In this document: positions 13,286-44,120 of the stretch, one piece after another
How the letters are laid out: every line of letters starts with the position of its first letter
How positions within the stretch are numbered: position 1 is the first letter of the stretch
Source: Zoogloea sp. 1C4
GTDB lineage: Bacteria > Pseudomonadota > Gammaproteobacteria > Burkholderiales > Rhodocyclaceae
Length of the DNA stretch: 64,000 nucleotides
Direction: 5' to 3'
Assembly (NCBI RefSeq): GCF_009469605.1
Contig: NZ_SSXU01000011.1
Span: 62,001 to 126,000 of the forward strand
Notes under the pieces: model-generated
What the model was told of the DNA's origin: nothing
The model's database searches: none
What the model saw: only the letters and a program-made list of their open reading frames with translations
Made by a program: the position numbers and the translations under genes

Positions 13286-13312
13286 TAAAGCTTGTCACCC
13301 GGCCGCCGTAGA
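13286..13312 (+). promoter_or_regulatory. Sigma-28 (FliA)-type promoter for the heme-motif chemoreceptor
   Basis: TTAAA (ending 13289) and GCCGTAGA (13305-13312) are separated by 15 bases, matching the flagellar consensus CTAAA-N15-GCCGATAA in spacing and in the key TAAA and GCCG blocks. The chemoreceptor start is 57 bases beyond the -10 element. Confidence 0.6.
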
Positions 13313-13369
13313 CCCGCCCATCAAGGGGATGGACACCCGCTGTGTCCGTTCGAGGGAAGGGATCTGCAA

Positions 13370-14992
13370 ATGCGCAAGCTGTCGGATACGCCAATCTGGT
13401 TGCGACTGACCGGAGCCATCTGGCTCATGCTGGTCATCGCCTGGGGTGGCATGATCGCCTGGGAGACCCGGGGCAATCGCGAAACCGCCATCGATCAGGC
13501 TCAGGATTTCGCAAACTCGATCCACGAGATGACGATGGCCGGGCTCACCGGGATGATGATCACCGGCACGGTCGGCCAGCGGGAGGTCTTTCTCGACCAG
13601 ATCAAGCAGCTGAGCGTGATCCGCGAATTGCAGGTGATCCGCGGCGAAGCGGTTTCCCGCCAGTTCGGTGCGGGCTCCCGCAGCCAGCCGGCGCTGGACT
13701 CCGACGAACAGGCCGCCATGGCGACCCGCCAGCCGTTCGTCCAGGTCGAGCGCGACGCTCAGTCGGGCGAATACCTGCGGGTGGTCAAACCGGCCCTCGC
13801 GTCCGAGAACTACCTCGGCAAGAACTGCATCGCCTGCCATCAGGTGCCGGCGGGGACGGTGCTCGGCCTTGTCAGCATGAAGGTGTCCCTCGACAAGGTG
13901 AATGCGGCGGTCGAGCGTTTCATGTGGCAGCGCATCGTCGCGGCGGCTTTGATCTCCCTGCCGCTGATCGCCTTTGTGGGCTTCTTCGTGCATCGTTTCG
14001 TGGTCACGCCCCTCAACGAGATGAACCGCAGTCTCGCTGAGATCGCCAAGGGCGAGGGTGACCTGACCCGCCGTCTCAAGGTGTCCGGGAGCGACGAAAT
14101 CGGCCAGACGGCTTCCACCTTCAACGAGATGCTGGGGACCATCGCCCAGCTGGTCCGACAGGTCAGTGAGGCGGCAGGGCGGGTGATCGGATCGTCCCAC
14201 GAGCTGGCCGCTGGCGCGGCCCGCGTGATCGACGGGTCGCGCCGGCAGCATGACCAGTCGGATCAGGCGAGTGAGGCCGTGTCGCGGATGACAGGCAATA
14301 TCCTGGATGTCACCACCAGCGCCGAACAGGTTCATCAGCGCTCCCAGGAGAGCCTGCGTCGGGCCGGGGAGGGCAGCAAGACACTGGAGTCCCTCGTCGC
14401 CGAGGTGAATCACGCCGAAGACGCTGTTCGCCAGATGGCGGATTCAGTGGAGCAGTTCGTCCAGTCCACCACGGTGATCACCACCATGACCCGCGAGGTG
14501 CGGGAGATCGCCGACCAGACCAATCTGCTCGCGCTCAATGCCGCCATCGAGGCCGCCCGGGCCGGCGAACAGGGCCGCGGGTTTGCCGTGGTGGCCGACG
14601 AGGTACGCAAGCTGGCCGAAAAGTCTGCTCGCTCGGCGGGTGAGATCGACGCCGTCACGTCGCAGATCTCCCGTCAGTCGGTGGCGGTACGCGATGCCAT
14701 CCACGCCGGGCTCGATCACCTGGCCTCAAGCCGGGAGGCGGTCGGCACCGTCTCCGCCGCCATCGAGTCTGCCAACGAATCCGTGGTTGCCGTCGGGCGT
14801 GGGCTCGACGAGATTGCGGTTGCCACCGAGAACCAGCGCCGGGCCAGCGAGGCCGTCGTCGAGAGCATCGACGCCATCACCGCCACGGCCCGCGAAAATG
14901 ACTCCGCCGTCGAATCCACGGCCCGCGCCGCCCGCGACATGGAAACCCTGGCCAGCCAGCTCCAGCAGACGGTGTCCCGCTTCCGGGTCTGA
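13370..14992 (+). CDS. Methyl-accepting chemotaxis protein with a periplasmic c-type heme motif
   Basis: 540-residue inner-membrane chemoreceptor. Two transmembrane helices (about 12-31 and 188-207) bracket a periplasmic sensor of about 155 residues that ends in a CIACH motif (Cys153, Cys156, His157), the CxxCH signature for covalent heme c, in a Tll0287/DUF3365-like setting ([13 protein letters not shown]). HAMP follows (about 208-260), then a signalling domain with the conserved hairpin [17 protein letters not shown]. Start ATG 13370 is preceded by GAAGGGA. The heme motif suggests redox or gas sensing; the ligand is unknown. A sigma-28-like promoter lies upstream, and a terminator follows. 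Confidence 0.9.
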
Positions 14993-19449: not shown

Positions 19450-19953
19450 TCAGCCCAGTTTCTTTTCCATGAACATCGCGGCTCCCATCGCCGGGTCGAG
19501 CTGGTAGGCCTGAAAGCCGAACTCCAGATAGGCCCGGTGCGCCCCGCGGTTGCCTTCCAGCACCTCCAGCGTCAGCTTGCAGCAGCCCCGGTCCCGCGCC
19601 ACCGTCTCGGCGTGGGCGAGGAGGGCGCGGGCGATCCCGCGTCGGCGGAAATCCTCGTGCACCACGATGTCGTGGATGTTGAGCAGCGGCTTGCCGGCGA
19701 AGGTGGAAAAACCCTCGACGCAGTTGATCAGGCCGGCGGGCTGCGTTCTTCCTGATTCATCACTCACGTAGGCAATGTGGCACAGCACCGTCGGCCGGCG
19801 GCGCAGGGCGTCCGGCAGGCGGGCGCGCAGGTCGTCGTCCATGGGTTTGCCGTTGCCCGTGGGGCCGCGCATGTAGTGGTCGAGGAGGAACAGGAAATCG
19901 GCGGTCTGCCGTGGGTCATCGAAGTTGACCGGCTGGAGGGTGAGGGTGGTCAT
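19450..19953 (-). CDS. GNAT family N-acetyltransferase
   Basis: 167 residues with a complete GNAT core: beta-4 NIHDIVVHEDFRRRGIARALL, containing the acetyl-CoA loop RRRGIA, and ARDRGCCKLTLEVLEGNRGAHRAYLEFGFQ near the C-terminus. Typical acetyltransferase of unknown substrate, transcribed convergently with the FemAB-like gene and divergently from the hydrogenase operon, so its promoter region is shared with hoxK. Confidence 0.88.
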   Translation of the reverse strand: MTTLTLQPVNFDDPRQTADFLFLLDHYMRGPTGNGKPMDDDLRARLPDALRRRPTVLCHIAYVSDESGRTQPAGLINCVEGFSTFAGKPLLNIHDIVVHEDFRRRGIARALLAHAETVARDRGCCKLTLEVLEGNRGAHRAYLEFGFQAYQLDPAMGAAMFMEKKLG

Positions 19954-23241: not shown

Positions 23242-23946
23242 ATGCTTTCACAACAAGACATGCTGGAGGCCGAACGGCACGGCCGGCAGGTACGTTCGAT
23301 CTACGTGTACGAGGCGCCGGTGCGCCTGTGGCACTGGATCAACGCCCTGGCCATCGTCGTGCTGGCGGTGAGCGGCTACTTCATCGGCAAGCCGCTGCCG
23401 ACGATGCCCGGTGAGGCGTCGGACAACTTCCTGATGGGCTACATCCGCTTTGCCCACTTCGCCGCGGCTTACATCTTCGCGGTGGGGCTGGTGGGGCGGG
23501 TGTATTGGGCCTTCGTCGGCAACCACCACGCCCGGCAGATCTTCAAGCTGCCGATCACCAACGGGCAGTGGTGGAGCGAGGTGTTCTTCGAGCTGCGCTG
23601 GTATCTCTTCCTTGAGAAGCACCCGAAGAAGTACGTCGGCCACAACCCGATGGCCCAGCTGATGATGTTCTTCTTCTTCACCGTGCTGGCCTTCGGGATG
23701 CTCTTCACCGGCTTCGCGCTGTACAGCGAAGGCCTTGGGCTGGGCTCGTGGGCCGATCGCCTGTTCGGCTGGGTGCTGCCGCTGCTGGGTGGCTCGATGC
23801 AGACCCACAGCCTGCACCGGCTCGGCATGTGGATCATGATGAGCTTTGCGCTGGTCCACGTGTATGCGGCGATCCGTGAAGACATCATGAGCCGCCAGAG
23901 TCTCATCTCCACGATGATCTCTGGCTGGCGGATGTTCAAGGACTGA
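23242..23946 (+). CDS. hoxZ: Hydrogenase b-type cytochrome subunit HoxZ (HupC/CybH)
   Basis: 234-residue diheme cytochrome b that anchors the HoxKG dimer and hands electrons to quinone. Four transmembrane helices are evident (about 28-46, 64-85, 137-158, 190-210), with His residues suitable for heme in RLWHWIN, RFAHFAAAY, HSLHRLGMW and ALVHVYA. Start ATG 23242 has GGGAGG upstream. Separated from hoxG by 159 bases holding two hairpins and a repeat, and closed by a strong terminator, which splits the classical operon here. Confidence 0.95.
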   Translation: MLSQQDMLEAERHGRQVRSIYVYEAPVRLWHWINALAIVVLAVSGYFIGKPLPTMPGEASDNFLMGYIRFAHFAAAYIFAVGLVGRVYWAFVGNHHARQIFKLPITNGQWWSEVFFELRWYLFLEKHPKKYVGHNPMAQLMMFFFFTVLAFGMLFTGFALYSEGLGLGSWADRLFGWVLPLLGGSMQTHSLHRLGMWIMMSFALVHVYAAIREDIMSRQSLISTMISGWRMFKD

Positions 23947-23972
23947 TCCAGCCGCCTGCAGGTGCTGCAAAC

Positions 23973-24004
23973 AAAAATGGCCCGGTTTCGACCGGGCCAT
24001 TTTT
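23973..24004 (+). terminator. Bidirectional terminator between hoxZ and the Trp-repeat gene
   Basis: A 14-bp perfect stem (23973-23986 with 23991-24004), TTCG tetraloop, ending in AAAAA/TTTTT on the two sides. It separates convergent genes. Confidence 0.93.
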
Positions 24005-24023
24005 ATTGAACGACTGCGCCGCG

Positions 24024-25154
24024 TCAGGCGATCGAGAACACGTAGATGAAGGACGCGGTGACCAGGATCAGCGCTGCGACGATGGCGCCGCCGGTGGCGA
24101 GGATCGAGGTGTAGCTGACGATCGCGAAGTGCCGCCCGCAGTTCTTGCAGCGGAAGTACTCGGTGAAGTTGATGCCGGCAAATTTGTGCGGATGCATCTT
24201 GGAGCGGCGCACGTTGGTGCTCTTGCAGTGGATGCAGTGGGGTGCCGCCGACTTGAACAGCTTGACCGCCCGGGCCGGCTTGCGCTTCTCGAGCACCTTC
24301 TTGCCCAGCTTGGCGGGCGGCAGGGATTCGGGCGGCATCTCGCTGTCCGGCGCGTCGGACTTGATCGTGGCGAGCTTGCTGTTGGCCTGGGCGCGGCGAT
24401 ACAGGAAGAACGCGAAGCCGCCCGAGATGAAGGCCACCAGGCCCACCAGGCCCACCTTCAGGAAGGGGCCGACGACGTGCCAGATGGCGGCGGGGTCGAG
24501 GGGCTGGGGCGCGGCAGGTGCGGCGCCCGGAGCTGCACCGGGCGCTGCGCCGGCGGGGGCGGTCATGGCGGCGCTGCCCGACGGGGATTGCCCGGCCGCG
24601 CCGCTGCGGATCTCCTTCAGCTTCTCGTGGCCATGCCAGGCGGCCTGGACCGGGCTCATGCCGGCACGGGCCAGCAGCACCGCGTCGTCAAAGACGAAGC
24701 CGGCCTCCCACCAGGCCAGCCGGTCGGCCGGCGAGAAGCCCTCGCGCTTCCAGGCGGCCGGATCGGAGTGGTCCATTTCCGACATCATCGAGCGGCTCTG
24801 GCGGGCCGAATCGCGCCACTGGCGGGCTTCATCGGCGTCGAAGCCCTTGTCCGACCAGGTGCGGGCGACGACCGGCTCGAAGCCGGCGGAGTGCCAGTTC
24901 ATGCCTTCCTGGGGGTTGAAGCCGTAGTTCTGCCACTCCCGTGCCTCGACCGGCTTCATGCCGGTGTCTTCCCATCGGGTCACCTTCGGCGGCGCCGGCA
25001 GGCTCGTGCCGCTCGCCGGTGCGGTGGTGGCCAGCGGGATGGAGGGCGCCGCCTCTGCCTTGGGAGGAATGGGTTCGCCCACCGAGACGGACACGGCCGG
25101 AAGCGGCGAGGCGAGCAGGGCGAGGGCCGCGATGGCCGGAAGAAGGTTTTTCAT
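24024..25154 (-). CDS. Membrane protein with 13-residue Trp repeats and a zinc ribbon, unknown function
   Basis: 376 residues from ATG 25154, which gives a signal peptide (MKNLLPAIAALALLASPLP). Residues 61-113 are four exact 13-residue repeats, pattern WxxxG(F/M)x(P/A)xxxxx, with Trp at 61, 74, 87, 100 and 113; two to three looser units follow to about 173. An Ala/Pro/Gly linker leads to a transmembrane helix (about 228-252), a cytoplasmic basic stretch, a CIHC ... CKNC zinc-ribbon-like motif (307-310, 336-339) and a second helix (349-372). Not recognised as a known family. It is inserted antisense between hoxZ and hoxM, where the classical hox operon has no gene. Confidence 0.75.
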   Translation of the reverse strand: MKNLLPAIAALALLASPLPAVSVSVGEPIPPKAEAAPSIPLATTAPASGTSLPAPPKVTRWEDTGMKPVEAREWQNYGFNPQEGMNWHSAGFEPVVARTWSDKGFDADEARQWRDSARQSRSMMSEMDHSDPAAWKREGFSPADRLAWWEAGFVFDDAVLLARAGMSPVQAAWHGHEKLKEIRSGAAGQSPSGSAAMTAPAGAAPGAAPGAAPAAPQPLDPAAIWHVVGPFLKVGLVGLVAFISGGFAFFLYRRAQANSKLATIKSDAPDSEMPPESLPPAKLGKKVLEKRKPARAVKLFKSAAPHCIHCKSTNVRRSKMHPHKFAGINFTEYFRCKNCGRHFAIVSYTSILATGGAIVAALILVTASFIYVFSIA

Positions 25155-25524
25155 GGGGAGGGACGATAAATCAGCGCAAGCGAAAGCGGATTGTGAACCG
25201 ATGCGGCGATGCGACAAAAGTCATATTTATCGCGCCCCTGCAGAAAATCCACATCCGGATCACAAGTGGTGATCGCAGACGATGGGTGGCGGGGCAAATG
25301 TCGCATAAATGGCAATGGCGTGGGCGGCTGATTGCATCTGGAGTGGAAACGATTCTTCCGCTTTCTGGTGGCGCTGGAAGTCTGCTTTTCCTTTTGACTG
25401 CCTGGTGGTATGGCTGTGTGCGCTAAGGCCTTGTCCTGTAAGCCGCTTCGCCTTTCGGGGCGTCGCAGGGCGGCCCGGCACGGAACTTGATTGAAGTGAC
25501 CACCTTCCTGTTTTCGGAAACGCC
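25155..25524 (+). other. 370-base divergent intergenic region before hoxM
   Basis: Holds no gene. It must contain promoters for the minus-strand Trp-repeat gene and for the hoxM-hypF run, since the terminator at 23973-24004 cuts these off from hoxKGZ. I see no convincing sigma-70 or sigma-54 element; GG-N12-GC near 25370 has the wrong spacing for sigma-54. Confidence 0.5.
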
Positions 25525-26136
25525 ATGACCGGCCATCCTTCCATTCTCGTTCTGGGTATCGGCAACCTCCTGTGGGCCGACGAAGGCTTTGGCGTGCGCT
25601 GCGCCGAAGCCCTGGCCGAACGCTTCGCGCTGCCGCCGCAGGTTACCGTGATGGACGGTGGCACCCAGGGCCTCTACCTGCTGCCCTACGTGGAGGACGC
25701 GCGCCGCCTGCTGGTGTTCGATGCGGTGGACTACGGCGATGCGCCGGGCACCCTGCGCATCGTGGTGGGCGACGAGGTGCCGCGCTTCATGGGCGCCAAG
25801 AAGATGAGCCTGCACCAGACCGGCTTCCAGGAAGTGCTGGCCTCGGCTGAACTCCTCGGCCGCCTGCCCGACGAGCTGGTGCTGATCGGCTGCCAGCCGG
25901 TCGAGCTAGAAGACTTTGGCGGCAGTCTGCGCGACGCGGTGAAGGCCCAGATCGGCCCGGCTCTCGACGTGGCCTGCGAATGGCTCACCCGCTGGGGCGC
26001 CGCGCCAGTGCCGCGCACGGATGCCGGCCCGCGCCTCAACGCCGACAGCCTGACCATGGACGCCTACGAAGCCGGCCGGCCCAGCGAGCGCGATGCCTGG
26101 CGCCTCGGCGACGCCCGCTTCATCCGGGAGGACTGA
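25525..26136 (+). CDS. hoxM: Hydrogenase maturation endopeptidase HoxM (HupD/HyaD)
   Basis: 203-residue protease that clips the 15-residue C-terminal tail of HoxG after nickel insertion, letting it join HoxK. The three nickel-contacting residues are in place: Glu20 (GNLLWADEGFG), Asp66 (LLVFDAVDYG) and His97 (KKMSLHQTGF). The only C-tail-bearing large subunit in the window is HoxG, its expected substrate. It opens the accessory gene run and is followed after 3 bases by hoxL. Confidence 0.96.
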   Translation: MTGHPSILVLGIGNLLWADEGFGVRCAEALAERFALPPQVTVMDGGTQGLYLLPYVEDARRLLVFDAVDYGDAPGTLRIVVGDEVPRFMGAKKMSLHQTGFQEVLASAELLGRLPDELVLIGCQPVELEDFGGSLRDAVKAQIGPALDVACEWLTRWGAAPVPRTDAGPRLNADSLTMDAYEAGRPSERDAWRLGDARFIRED

Positions 26137-34825: not shown

Positions 34826-34853
34826 CTAAACCTTCATCAGTCTTCGCCGATAC
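34826..34853 (+). promoter_or_regulatory. Sigma-28 (FliA)-type promoter for the FIST chemoreceptor
   Basis: CTAAA (34826-34830), 15 bases, then GCCGATAC (34846-34853): all but one base of the flagellar consensus CTAAA-N15-GCCGATAA. It lies 43 bases before the chemoreceptor start. Confidence 0.8.
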
Positions 34854-34896
34854 ACCGCGGACACGGCCCGTTCCGAGGCCCGCAAGGAGACTTGAA

Positions 34897-36927
34897 GTGA
34901 ACCTGTTCAGCAAGCTGCGCGCCGCGCCGCAGCCGGGCGTGCACACCCTGCAGTGCCGCGCCGTCGATGTGGCATCGACCCTCGCCGCGGTCGCCATCCA
35001 GCCCACCTTCATCAGCGCCTACGTGTCGCCCCACGTGGATATCGAGCCCGTCGCCCGGGCCGTCAGCGGGCGCTTCCCCGGTGTGCCGGTGATGCTGTGC
35101 TCCACCGCCGGCGAACTGTGCAGCGGCAGCGGCCCGCTCTACTGTGCCACTGGCAACAGCTGGGACCGGGTGGTCATCCAGTGTTTCGACGCGTCCCTGA
35201 TCGCCCGCGCCCAGGTGGTCGCCGTGCCCCTGGGCAGCGAAGACCTGCGTCGCGGCCAGCGCGACCTGCCGGTGCGCGACCGGGTCGCAGCCCTCGCCAA
35301 GCGCATCCGCGACGTACGGGTGGACATCGACATCGACCACCGCGACACCTTCGCCCACATCCTGTTCGACGGCCTGTCGGCCTCCGAATCCTTCTTCATG
35401 GAGGCGCTCTACGAATCCGGGCGTTTCCCGTGCCTGTTCGTGGGCGGCTCGGCCGGCGGCAAGTTCGATTTCAAGAACACCTGGATCCACGACGGCACCC
35501 GCAAGCTCGAAAACCACGCCCTGATCGCCTTCCTCAAGGTGGCGAAGGGCACGCGCTTCGGGGTCCTCAAGAGCCACAACTTCGAGCCCGACGGCGCCCG
35601 CTTCCCGGTGATCGGCGCGTCGCTGGAGCAGCGCTACGTGAGCCAGGTGATCGCCGAGGACGGCAGCATCGTGTCCTTCATCGACGCCCTGTGCCGGCAC
35701 TTCCGCTGCCAGCCCCAGGCGCTCGAGAGCAAGCTGGCCGATTACTCCTTCGCGATCAAGGTCGGCGACGAGCTGTTCGTCCGATCGGTGGTGAACGTCA
35801 ATCTCGACGCCGGGCGGGTCAATTTCTACTGCGACATCTCGCCGGGCGAAGACCTGCGGCTGGTCCGCCGTACCGGCCTCGCCCAGGCCACCGAGCGGGA
35901 TTTCAAGGCCTTCATGAACGGCAAGCCCGGCCTGCCCGTGGCCGGCATCCTCAACGACTGCATCCTGCGCCGGCTCTACAACGACAAGGAGCTCGCGCGC
36001 CTCGGCGACGTGCTGCCCGGCGGCCAGATGGCCGGCTTCTCCACCTTTGGCGAGATCCTCGGCCTCAACCTCAACCAGACCCTCACCGCGGTGTTCTTCT
36101 TCCGGGTGCCTGAGGGCGCGCCCTTCCGCGACGAGTTCGTGGATAACTTCGTCGCCCACTACGGTGAGTTCAAGGCCTTCTTCCTGCGCCGCCAGAGCAA
36201 CAAGTTTGCCGGCCTGTCGCGGGTGATCGTGCGCCAGATCGCCGACTACCAGTCCGAAAGCTTCGACAGCCAGCTCGATCCGTCCGGCTTCGACGACAAC
36301 ATCTCGCTGGTGGTGCGTGGCCTCAACAGCCTGGGGCAGACGCTCCAGTCGTCCTACGTCCTGCGCAACGACACCGCCCGCCAGCTCGAAGCCTGCGCCG
36401 GCGACCTCTACGCCTCGGTGGGGGCCCTCGGCGGCCACATCGACGAGCAGGGGCGGGTCGTCCACGACGCCGGCACGATGGTCACCAACCTCACCAACCA
36501 GGCCGCCGGTGCCGCCGACAGCGCCCGCCAGCTCGCGCTGGCCAGTGGCCGTATCCAGGGCGTCGTCGAGGTGATCCAGCAGATCGCCGACCAGACCAAC
36601 CTGCTGGCCCTCAACGCCGCCATCGAGGCAGCCCGGGCCGGCGAGGCCGGACGCGGTTTTGCGGTGGTGGCCGACGAGGTGCGCAAGCTGGCCGAGAAAT
36701 CCCGCACCAGCGCCGGCGAGATCGGCGCCGACATCTCGTCGCTGGCCAGCGAGATCGGTCGCGTGGCCCAGGAGATCGAACGCCAGTCGGGCGACGTGTC
36801 GCGCCTGTCGTCGCTCCTCACCGACATCGAGACCATCAGCAGCCAGACCGCCGGCAACGCCGACCACACCCGGACGGTGGCCGACACCCTCAAACACCTC
36901 ACCGAGAACCAGCTGACCCAGGCCTGA
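34897..36927 (+). CDS. Soluble FIST-domain methyl-accepting chemotaxis protein
   Basis: 676 residues, no transmembrane helix, so it is a cytoplasmic receptor. The N-terminal half is a FIST N plus FIST C sensor (about residues 20-410; marks include [24 protein letters not shown] and [17 protein letters not shown]). The C-terminal third is a chemoreceptor signalling domain with [29 protein letters not shown]. There is no HAMP. The GTG start at 34897 is supported by AAGGAG 7 bases upstream. It sits between hypD and hypE, but has its own sigma-28 promoter, which ties it to the flagellar regulon. FIST domains are proposed to bind small ligands; the ligand is not known. Confidence 0.9.
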
Positions 36928-41692: not shown

Positions 41693-42684
41693 ACCTCCTG
41701 TGGCTCCAGTCCGGCGGCTGTGGCGGCTGCACCATGTCGCTGCTGTGCTCCGGCGCGCGGGACGTGCTGGGGCTGCTGTCGTCGGCTGGCATCACCCTCG
41801 CTTGGCATCCATCGCTCTCCGAAGCCTCGGGCGACGAGGTGCGTGGGCTGCTGGCCGATTTCGAATCCGGCGCCAAACCGCTGGACCTGCTGTGCGTCGA
41901 AGGCTCGCTCCTCACCGGCCCCAACGGCAGCGGGCGCTTCCACATGCTGGCGGGCACCGGCCGGCCGATGATCGACTGGGTGAAGCGCCTCGCCGCCCGC
42001 GCCCGCTTCACCCTGGGCGTGGGCACCTGCGCGGCCTACGGCGGCATCACCGCGGCGGGCAACAACCCGTCGGGCGCCACCGGCCTGCAGTACGACGGCG
42101 ACCACCGGGGCGGGCTGCTCGGGGCCGACTACCGCTCGGCCGCCGGCCTGCCGGTGATCAACGTGGCCGGCTGCCCGACCCACCCGGACTGGGTCACCGA
42201 CACCCTGCTGGCCCTCGCCCTCGGGCAGTTCGGCGAGGCCGATCTCGACGCCCTCGGCCGGCCGCGCTTCTACGCCGACCAGCTGGTGCACCACGGCTGC
42301 AACCGCAACGAGTTCTACGAGTTCAAGGCCAGCGCCGAGAAGCCCGGCGACCTGGGCTGCATGATGGAGCACCTGGGCTGCAAGGGCACCCAGGCCCACG
42401 CCGACTGCAACACCCGGCCGTGGAACGGCGCCGGCTCGTGCACCAACGGCGGCTACCCGTGCATCAGCTGCACCGAGCCGGGCTTCGAGTCGCCGGGCCA
42501 CGCCTTCGACCGCACGCCCAAGGTGGCCGGCATCCCCATCGGCCTGCCCTCCGACATGCCCAAGGCGTGGTTCGTGGCGCTGGCGGCGCTGTCCAAGTCG
42601 GCCACCCCGGCGCGCGTGCGCCAGAACGCCGTGGTCGAGACGCCGGTGCTCGCGCCGGCCATTCGCAAGACGGGGCTGAAATGA
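41689..42684 (+). CDS. hoxB: H2-sensing regulatory hydrogenase small subunit HoxB (HupU)
   Basis: 331 residues. Small subunit of the cytoplasmic H2 sensor. It starts directly with LLWLQSGGCGGCTMSLL, with no Tat signal and no C-terminal anchor, unlike HoxK. Proximal-cluster segments read GCGGC and GTCAAYGGI, so the two extra cysteines of the oxygen-tolerant cluster are absent and a standard [4Fe-4S] is expected. Distal and medial cluster ligands are present (VHHGCNRNEFYEF, GCKGTQAHADCN, CISCTEPGF). Overlaps hoxA and hoxC. Confidence 0.96.
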
Positions 42685-44120
42685 GCAGAGTGGTGGTGGG
42701 GCCCTTCAACCGCGTCGAGGGCGACCTGGAGGTGAGCCTCGATTTCGAGGGTGGCCGGGTGGCGGCGGCGTACGTCAATTCGCCGCTCTTCCGCGGATTC
42801 GAGCAGATCCTGATCGGCCGCGAGCCGATGGACGCGCTGGCCATCGTGCCGCGCATCTGCGGCATCTGCTCGGTGTCCCAGTCGGCCGCGGCGGCGGCGG
42901 CGCTGGCCGATCTGGCCGGTGTGCGGCCCACACCCAACGGCCAGCGGGTGAGCAACCTGATCCTGGCGGCCGAGAACCTGGCCGACCACTTCACCCACTT
43001 CTACCTCTTCTTCATGCCGGACTTCGCGCGGGACGCCTACCGCGGCCGGCCGTGGTTCGACGCCGCCGCGGCGCGCTTCAAGGCCACCACCGGCAGCGCC
43101 ACTGCCGACGCCCTGCCGGCCCGGGCGGCCTTCCTGCAGATCATGGGCAGCCTGGCCGGCAAGTGGCCCCACAGCATGACGCTGCAGCCCGGCGGCGTGG
43201 CCCGGGCGCCCCAGACCGCCGAGCGGCTTCGGGTCTTCGCGGCGCTGCGGGAGTTCCGAGCGTGGCTGGAGCGACACCTCTTCGGCGACCGGCTGGAGGC
43301 CATCGCCGGCATCGATTCGGTTGCCGCGCTGCGCCGCTGGATGGACGCCCGGCCGGCCACGGCCAGCGACTTCCGGCTGTTCCTGGCGATCGCCGATGAC
43401 CTGCAGCTCGCCCGCATCGGCCGTGCGACGGACCGCTTCCTCAGCCACGGCGCCTATCCCAAGGACGCCGGCTGGCTCTTCCCCCGCGGCGTGCTCGACC
43501 TGCCGGCCGGCGCCCTGCAGCCCTTCGAGCCGGCGGATGTGGTCGAGGACGTCTCCCACGCCTGGCTGGAGGCCGACGTGCCGCGCCATCCCTCCGAGGG
43601 CGACACCCGGCCGGTGGAACACAAGGATGGCGCCTACACCTGGTGCAAGGCGCCGCGCTGGCAGGGTCAGGTGGCCGAATGCGGCGCGCTGGCCCGCCAG
43701 GTGGTGGCCGGCCACCCGCTGATCCGCGAGCTGGTGATGGAGCACGGCGGCAACGTGGCGAGCCGGGTCATCGCCCGGCTGCTGGAGTTGGCGCTGGTGG
43801 TGCCGGCGATGGAACAGTGGCTGAAGGCCCTCGACGACGGGCCGTTCTGCGCGCAGACGATGCTCCCCACCGATGGCCGCGGCTGTGGGCTGGTGGAGGC
43901 CGCCCGGGGCGCGCTGGGGCACTGGCTCACCGTGCGCGGCGGCCACATCGTGCGCTACCAGATCATCGCGCCCACCACCTGGAACTTCTCGCCCCGCGAC
44001 GCCGCTGGCACGCCTGGCGCGCTGGAGCAGGCCCTGGTCGGTCTGCCGGAAGCCGAGCCGCTGCTGGTGCAGCACGTGGTGCGGAGTTTCGATCCTTGCA
44101 TGGTGTGCACCGTCCACTAG
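42681..44120 (+). CDS. hoxC: H2-sensing regulatory hydrogenase large subunit HoxC (HupV)
   Basis: 479 residues. Nickel-iron subunit of the H2 sensor. Active-site motifs are RICGIC and DPCMVC. RICGIC carries Ile where HoxG has Val (RICGVC), the gas-channel narrowing known from sensor hydrogenases that keeps oxygen out. The protein stops at DPCMVCTVH with no C-terminal tail, so it needs no endopeptidase. Overlaps hoxB (ATGA). No gene follows for about 340 bases. Confidence 0.97.
   Translation: MSRVVVGPFNRVEGDLEVSLDFEGGRVAAAYVNSPLFRGFEQILIGREPMDALAIVPRICGICSVSQSAAAAAALADLAGVRPTPNGQRVSNLILAAENLADHFTHFYLFFMPDFARDAYRGRPWFDAAAARFKATTGSATADALPARAAFLQIMGSLAGKWPHSMTLQPGGVARAPQTAERLRVFAALREFRAWLERHLFGDRLEAIAGIDSVAALRRWMDARPATASDFRLFLAIADDLQLARIGRATDRFLSHGAYPKDAGWLFPRGVLDLPAGALQPFEPADVVEDVSHAWLEADVPRHPSEGDTRPVEHKDGAYTWCKAPRWQGQVAECGALARQVVAGHPLIRELVMEHGGNVASRVIARLLELALVVPAMEQWLKALDDGPFCAQTMLPTDGRGCGLVEAARGALGHWLTVRGGHIVRYQIIAPTTWNFSPRDAAGTPGALEQALVGLPEAEPLLVQHVVRSFDPCMVCTVH

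Follow-up and report, generated by a model that had tools for sequence, protein, structure and literature searches.

The window analysed here, a 64,000-nucleotide stretch of DNA from Zoogloea sp. 1C4, contains between hoxZ and hoxM a gene whose product combines a strict 13-residue tryptophan repeat with a predicted zinc ribbon. The first-pass annotation of this DNA had proposed an assembly factor or a transmembrane sensor for the periplasmic (group-1) hydrogenase encoded next to it. We therefore asked whether the protein, called repeat-ribbon protein in the following, belongs to this hydrogenase or to something else. Labels of class and family that go further than the record titles, as well as hox and hyp gene names other than those confirmed by NCBIfam, are used in their customary sense.

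Anatomy and topology of the repeat-ribbon protein

The reading frame starts with an ATG at position 25154 and encodes a protein of 376 amino acids that begins with MKNLLPAIAALALLASPLPA. The gene and the parts of its product are:

24024..25154, minus strand: complete repeat-ribbon gene, 376 aa, with signal peptide, W13 array, transmembrane (TM) helix 1, cytosolic zinc ribbon and TM helix 2 in the predicted topology
25083..25154, minus strand: predicted signal peptide, residues ~1-24 (hydrophobic from residue 3, AxA-like sites in homologues)
24609..24992, minus strand: array of 13-residue tryptophan repeats (W13), residues 55-182, W at 61/74/87/100/113/135/148/173 (self-match, HMM, dN/dS)
24396..24491, minus strand: TM helix 1, residues ~222-253, RR after it (hydropathy)
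24123..24236, minus strand: predicted zinc ribbon CIHC...CKNC, residues ~307-344 (four-Cys pattern; Pfam ribbon matches below threshold)
24027..24128, minus strand: TM helix 2, residues ~343-376 (hydropathy)

The hydropathy profile contains three hydrophobic stretches that start near residues 3, 222 and 343. As several homologues have AxA-like cleavage sites and TM helix 1 is followed by RR, the repeats most likely lie outside the membrane and the ribbon inside the cytosol. The four-Cys pattern of the predicted zinc ribbon is present in all 25 rows of the Zoogloea alignment, which are taken as representing 23 genomes of the genus, given that the named loci correspond to seven of these genomes in contig position and sequence. 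The order of parts given in the first-pass annotation, i.e. an exported repeat, a membrane helix, an inner CxxC...CxxC ribbon and a second helix, agrees with the sequence and with this predicted topology.

The repeat-ribbon protein matches no model of Pfam or NCBIfam at the level of its cut-off. The zinc ribbons of Pfam that have the CxxC...CxxC pattern in common with it (SprT-like, Zn_ribbon_8, IS1595) all match below their curated cut-offs, and Sel1 is absent (Pfam, E up to 10). The best PHROGs match has an E value of 0.11, and searches of viral, plasmid and phage collections, with either the A2 profile or the complete protein as query, found no relative. Among solved structures, the whole protein as query found no matching chain and the repeat region found two matches with E values of 0.54 and 2.2. 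Two-unit repeats reached at best 1.3e-5 with designed proteins, whose single stretches give 12 bits or less, and the best matches of the ribbon profile (9.7e-8) are classical zinc fingers. In literature titles and abstract openings neither a W13 repeat nor a ribbon-Sel1 protein was found described; passages of PMC5648520 mention neither hydrogenase nor zinc.

The 13-residue tryptophan repeat

Tryptophan is found at residues 61, 74, 87, 100, 113, 135, 148, 149 and 173. The positions, the steps of 13 residues and the looser later copies that had been claimed earlier are all as stated, W149 being an addition. The units take the form W-x3-G-F/M-x-P/A-x2-A and follow each other in tandem every 13 residues, which places the array in the W13 class discussed below. 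The unit opened by W113 is degenerate (WRDSARQSRSMMS), and an insert shifts the later copies.

For five tryptophans at one fixed step, 200,000 shuffles each of residues 22-222 and of residues 55-182 gave 35 and 124 cases, respectively, and tryptophan alone thus yields p values of ~2e-4 to 6e-4. When all residues were compared by self-matching, lag 13 gave 26 matches, a number not equalled in any of 20,000 shuffles. None of 5,000 shuffles equalled the lag-13 score in a control in which the best of lags 5-39 was taken; lag 26 gave 21 matches. The spacing W-12-W-12-W-12-W-12-W-21-W-12-W-24-W is kept in 25/25 rows, which comprise 23 different sequences.

Comparison of the window with its nearest relative (L003) gave a dN/dS ratio of 0.136 overall, 0.036 for the repeats and 0.03 for ribbon plus TM helix 2, compared to 0.62 for the N-terminal linker and 0.252 for residues 183-222. 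Purifying selection on repeat and ribbon is strong. These values also bear on the view that the repeat-ribbon protein has a structural role in the cell wall or envelope, in which the W array would passively serve as a spacer or bind the wall and the ribbon would be no more than a fold-stabilising cytosolic cap. Linkers that evolve faster than the domains would suit such a protein; a ribbon with TM helix 2 constrained as much as the repeats argues against it.

Distribution of the gene and of the group-1 hydrogenase

The repeat-ribbon gene is present in 23/23 genomes of the genus Zoogloea, including all 15 of good quality, and those relatives that carry a name are recorded under Zoogloea or Zoogloeaceae. 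The genome sets searched are samples of larger groups. In a family sample of 150 genomes, six matched at an E value of 0.001 or better, namely four genus members and two genomes with ribbon-only matches, so that a match beyond the ribbon (E up to 0.001) was found in none of the 146 family genomes outside the genus. The repeat-region profile matched one of 369 genomes of the class, the window's own.

A large subunit of the group-1 type (PF00374, E value of 1e-231 or better) is encoded in only 10 of the 23 genus genomes. In nine of them hoxKGZ is found at the repeat-ribbon locus, with the gene between hoxZ and hoxM, and the tenth (G158) has the large subunit and the repeat-ribbon gene on different contigs. 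The gene therefore does not co-occur with the group-1 large subunit as an accessory gene of a hox/hya operon would (23/23 versus 10/23 genomes), and 13 genomes have it without that subunit. Outside the genus the reverse is seen. At 1e-100 or better, PF00374 matched 83 of the 150 family genomes, two of them in the genus, leaving 81 of 146 outside, and none of these 81 genomes with a strong NiFe large subunit has a match to the repeat protein beyond the ribbon (judged by the genome handles, both counts come from the same draw of 150 genomes). The outcome comes close to homologues lying mostly away from hydrogenase genes, which the first-pass annotation itself had named as speaking against its reading.

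Mapped on the tree of the repeat-ribbon gene, in which two long-branched rows are placed unsurely, the presence of hoxKGZ requires four changes, at least two of them forced by supported branches. The genes of the group-1 hox/hya operon are neighbours of the repeat-ribbon gene and are named by NCBIfam, whereas the gene itself has no NCBIfam match above cut-off; a match to a named hydrogenase accessory family was sought and none was found above the Pfam and NCBIfam cut-offs.

Because the distributions of the gene and of the group-1 large subunit differ, a role of the repeat-ribbon protein in the group-1 hydrogenase is not supported. In favour of an assembly factor or sensor for this periplasmic enzyme are the location between hoxZ and hoxM in 9/23 genomes and the exported repeats, which would face the same compartment as the enzyme. 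Against it, in addition to the counts above, stand the opposite strand and a hairpin between the gene and hoxZ, and we regard this explanation as very improbable. The group-1 hydrogenase genes are neighbours of the repeat-ribbon protein and not its clients, and a false lead towards a new hydrogenase factor is thereby removed. The protein may still be a transmembrane sensor; what lacks support is the tie of such a sensor to the periplasmic hydrogenase. We are highly confident in the anatomy as read together with the independence from the group-1 enzyme.

Gene order and hydrogen metabolism at large

While hoxKGZ and hoxM-V vary around the repeat-ribbon gene, the gene's own place is constant, its position on the ilvD/GNAT side and on the hyp side being the same with or without hox. 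Of the 14 loci that lack hoxKGZ, 10 have hypA and 3 have hypF as the closest of the tested genes on the upstream side, and the 14th locus ends early. In three loci hypF is the sole hyp gene found nearby. At loci with hox, hypA lies beyond the hoxM-V block.

A PF00374 match of some kind is present in 22/23 genus genomes, the exception being the 72% complete G157. For genomes without the group-1 enzyme we had considered that they possess no hydrogenase at all, the weak PF00374 matches being NuoD of complex I. This was ruled out: as a small subunit adjoins and both CxxC motifs are present in the large subunit in 7/8 loci read, these matches are group-3-like hydrogenases. The eighth locus is a 1946-base stretch showing one CxxC motif. 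For the one group-3-like large subunit tested, the best NCBIfam relative is VhuA, below cut-off. Given these enzymes, the notion that the hyp genes are orphans and that the repeat-ribbon gene is independent of all hydrogenases was dropped. The loci in question (L051-L058, from G133, G150, G154 and others) encode a NiFe large subunit of ~500 aa with the small subunit adjoining, the group-1 enzyme being absent. The window itself contains further matches to a hydrogenase small and large subunit on the plus strand (41719-42216 and 43107-44117), ~20 kb from hoxKGZ.

The gene may possibly be linked to hyp or to hydrogen metabolism more broadly. The repeat-ribbon protein would then be a nickel- or hyp-linked helper, or a redox or metal sensor, serving the group-3-like hydrogenase. 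A hyp gene as the nearest tested gene upstream in 13/14 loci without hoxKGZ, the PF00374 matches throughout most of the genus and the paired CxxC motifs of the group-3-like enzyme fit this proposal. Opposed to it are the lack of a repeat-protein match outside the genus, though many genomes there have a strong NiFe large subunit, and the three loci with hypF as the only hyp gene nearby. Furthermore, since a single gene order is common to the Zoogloea loci, the adjacency to hyp is not independent evidence. On balance we consider this explanation improbable, if less so than a group-1 factor.

Promoter side, hairpin and GNAT neighbour

Three elements flank the gene:

25210..25225, minus strand: conserved upstream element TATGACTTTTGTCGCA, ~55 nt before the ATG; sole exact copy in the genome
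23973..24004, no strand assigned: 14-bp hairpin with A/T flanks, likely a two-way terminator, hoxZ and the repeat-ribbon gene being convergent
19450..19953, minus strand: GNAT acetyltransferase gene (PF00583), directly downstream of the repeat-ribbon gene in most genomes without hoxKGZ

The divergent gap between the repeat-ribbon gene and hoxM measures 370 nt. Counted by eye, the upstream element ATGACTTTTGTCGC is identical in 13/23 rows, related in others and unrecognisable in two. A sigma-70 scan from 23800 to 25700 found no promoter-like site. The gene had been credited with its own promoter gap, which is reasonable for a 370-nt gap with a conserved element, the sigma-70 site not having been found. 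A regulon for the element was considered and rejected, as the genome has only one further site, with 2 mismatches.

The predicted folding energy of the hairpin is -23.2 kcal/mol (z -6.0) for one strand and -26.9 kcal/mol (z -7.0) for the other; it is not listed by the consensus terminator scanner. The designation of the gene as antisense holds in the sense of the opposite strand and no further, the hairpin separating it from hoxZ.

At 12 of the 14 loci without hoxKGZ, the GNAT gene is located 13-62 nt downstream in the same orientation; at the other two a GNAT match is absent. The gap between the two genes is 3.9-4.2 kb in seven hoxKGZ loci outside the window, and at the eighth no GNAT is found before the contig end. 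Since the gap is short without hoxKGZ and extends over kilobases with it, hoxKGZ probably sits within a two-gene unit of repeat-ribbon gene and GNAT. Where hoxKGZ is absent, the repeat-ribbon gene is likely co-transcribed with the GNAT gene, and the GNAT enzyme may act together with the repeat-ribbon protein.

The ribbon-TM module elsewhere in the family

Ribbon profile A4, composed of the Zoogloea ribbons and two distant ones, matched 64/296 family genomes and 17/68 genera, 11 of the 64 genomes belonging to Zoogloea; both numbers depend on the inclusion of the two distant ribbons. At the 19 loci read outside the genus (L110-L128), 17 ribbon-TM proteins are of the Sel1 kind by eye and two are short proteins with ribbon and TM helix only. 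Pfam confirmed Sel1 in 3/3 of the proteins tested.

Reciprocal searches with hmmsearch were performed, E values being calculated for 60,000 ORFs. A profile built exclusively from the ribbons of Zoogloea found 11/20 ORFs at an E value of 0.008 or better (best 5.7e-9) and the other nine at 0.016 to 3.3, and an HMM built from the ribbons of other genera found 25/25 Zoogloea rows with E values of 1.4e-9 to 8.8e-6. Profile-profile comparison (hhalign) of Zoogloea with the other genera gave a probability of 98.8. Both thus have a homologous four-Cys ribbon with a TM helix after it, with a bias in that the set was gathered with A4, which contained the ribbons of Zoogloea as well as two sequences that belong to the set itself.

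Like the repeat-ribbon protein, the ribbon-TM-Sel1 proteins (for example L013, L014 and L114) have this ribbon and TM helix, and helical repeats are predicted across the membrane from the ribbon. They differ from it in carrying Sel1 repeats after the TM helix and no W array. Their genes are often next to phoU (12/19 loci read, mostly only 3 kb long: L086, L087, L112-L119, L122, L123), whereas the repeat-ribbon gene is located at the ilvD-hyp locus. The phoU loci of 5/5 Zoogloea genomes read contain no such ribbon. In the window's genome, a Sel1-like stretch without ribbon was noted ~2.5 kb from phoU (L136:863-1183). Judged from these sequences, the repeat-ribbon protein is a composite of an exported W13 array and a ribbon-TM module that elsewhere in the family is joined to Sel1; neither module is named in the libraries searched.

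W13 units outside Zoogloea

The two-unit profile A5 matched 9/398 phylum genomes at an E value of 0.01, the window's own included. Among four of the eight other loci that were read, only L089 is repeat-like, a lipoprotein with W13 units. Profile A7, made from the Zoogloea units, the L089 units and units of three plasmid-collection records, matched 6/295 genomes of the order of L089 at 1e-4, in 2/99 genera (G734 by construction). The corresponding proteins (L144-L149) are W13 lipoproteins of ~105-117 aa, made up largely of 13-residue W units, from another order of the same class. All six are small and have a lipobox by eye, L147 has a W every 13 residues, and for L144, the one tested, all Pfam and NCBIfam models stay below cut-off.

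An HMM of the six lipoproteins alone scored the window's protein with 68.8 bits and 25/25 Zoogloea rows with 60.7-69.9 bits, and the best of 10,000 shuffled ectodomains reached 11.0 bits; the lipoproteins had been found with A7, which held Zoogloea units, and convergence of short repeats is compatible with the shuffle result. The lipoproteins resemble the Zoogloea array in that their units stand in tandem, usually place a W every 13 residues and have ends similar to GF-x-L/V-x-x-A...GL. In contrast to the repeat-ribbon protein, they are exported by a lipobox and have neither a TM pair nor a ribbon. The first Cys of the repeat-ribbon protein is found at residue 307 or later, and the lipobox of the W13 lipoproteins is therefore absent from it.

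Genomic contexts of the W13 lipoproteins, read for five of the six loci, are varied; they show no constant partner and point to no function. Small lipobox-bearing relatives of this kind add to the case for a passive envelope protein as introduced above; weighed together with the constraint on its ribbon, we consider that explanation unlikely, yet the least unlikely of the three alternatives discussed.

Similar units were found in Euzebya, Nonomuraea and Acaryochloris records with E values of 1e-3 to 5e-3. A made-up consensus unit recovered the same three records and had no match in phage. W13 may be a so far unrecognised repeat class with one short helix per 13 residues, occurring in Pseudomonadota, Actinomycetota and Cyanobacteriota, and in the Zoogloea family the cytosolic ribbon-TM module may be coupled to either of two unrelated periplasmic scaffolds, W13 or Sel1, which would yield a group of transmembrane adaptors whose outer parts can be exchanged; we hold this combined view tentatively, at somewhat less than even chances. 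The data point to a repeat class for which the proteins tested gave no Pfam or NCBIfam match above cut-off. They also point to a ribbon-TM module that would be family-wide with swappable outer domains.

Proposed role of the repeat-ribbon protein

We favour, at about even chances, the reading of the repeat-ribbon protein as a genus-core envelope protein of Zoogloea that acts as a transmembrane adaptor. Each W13 unit (P-x-x-A-x-x-W-x-x-x-G-F) would form one short helix, capped by the proline and closed by the glycine, with its W and F packing against neighbouring units. About eight such units could stack into a periplasmic helical scaffold that binds a protein or a wall component. The two TM helices would connect the array to the cytosolic ribbon, and the ribbon may tether or signal to a cytosolic partner. 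A specific role as scaffold or sensor is more doubtful, at roughly one chance in three.

Several points weigh against the adaptor reading. The proximity to hyp may exceed inherited gene order, the GNAT match is missing at two of the 14 loci without hoxKGZ, and nearly half of the ORFs are reached by the Zoogloea-only ribbon profile just at the weaker E values given above. The gene is kept in all sampled genomes of the genus, its whole form is confined to Zoogloea in the samples searched, and, as a speculation, it may bear on what sets this floc-forming genus apart.

Two other genes in the window were noted in passing. At 34837-36927 (plus strand), in the hyp cluster between hypD and hypE, a FIST-N/FIST-C sensor is fused to an MCP signalling domain, and this fusion gene also occurs in several Zoogloea loci without hoxKGZ. 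At 13292-14992 (plus strand), a methyl-accepting chemotaxis-type protein carries in its sensor part, by eye, the haem-type motif CIACH (CxxCH).
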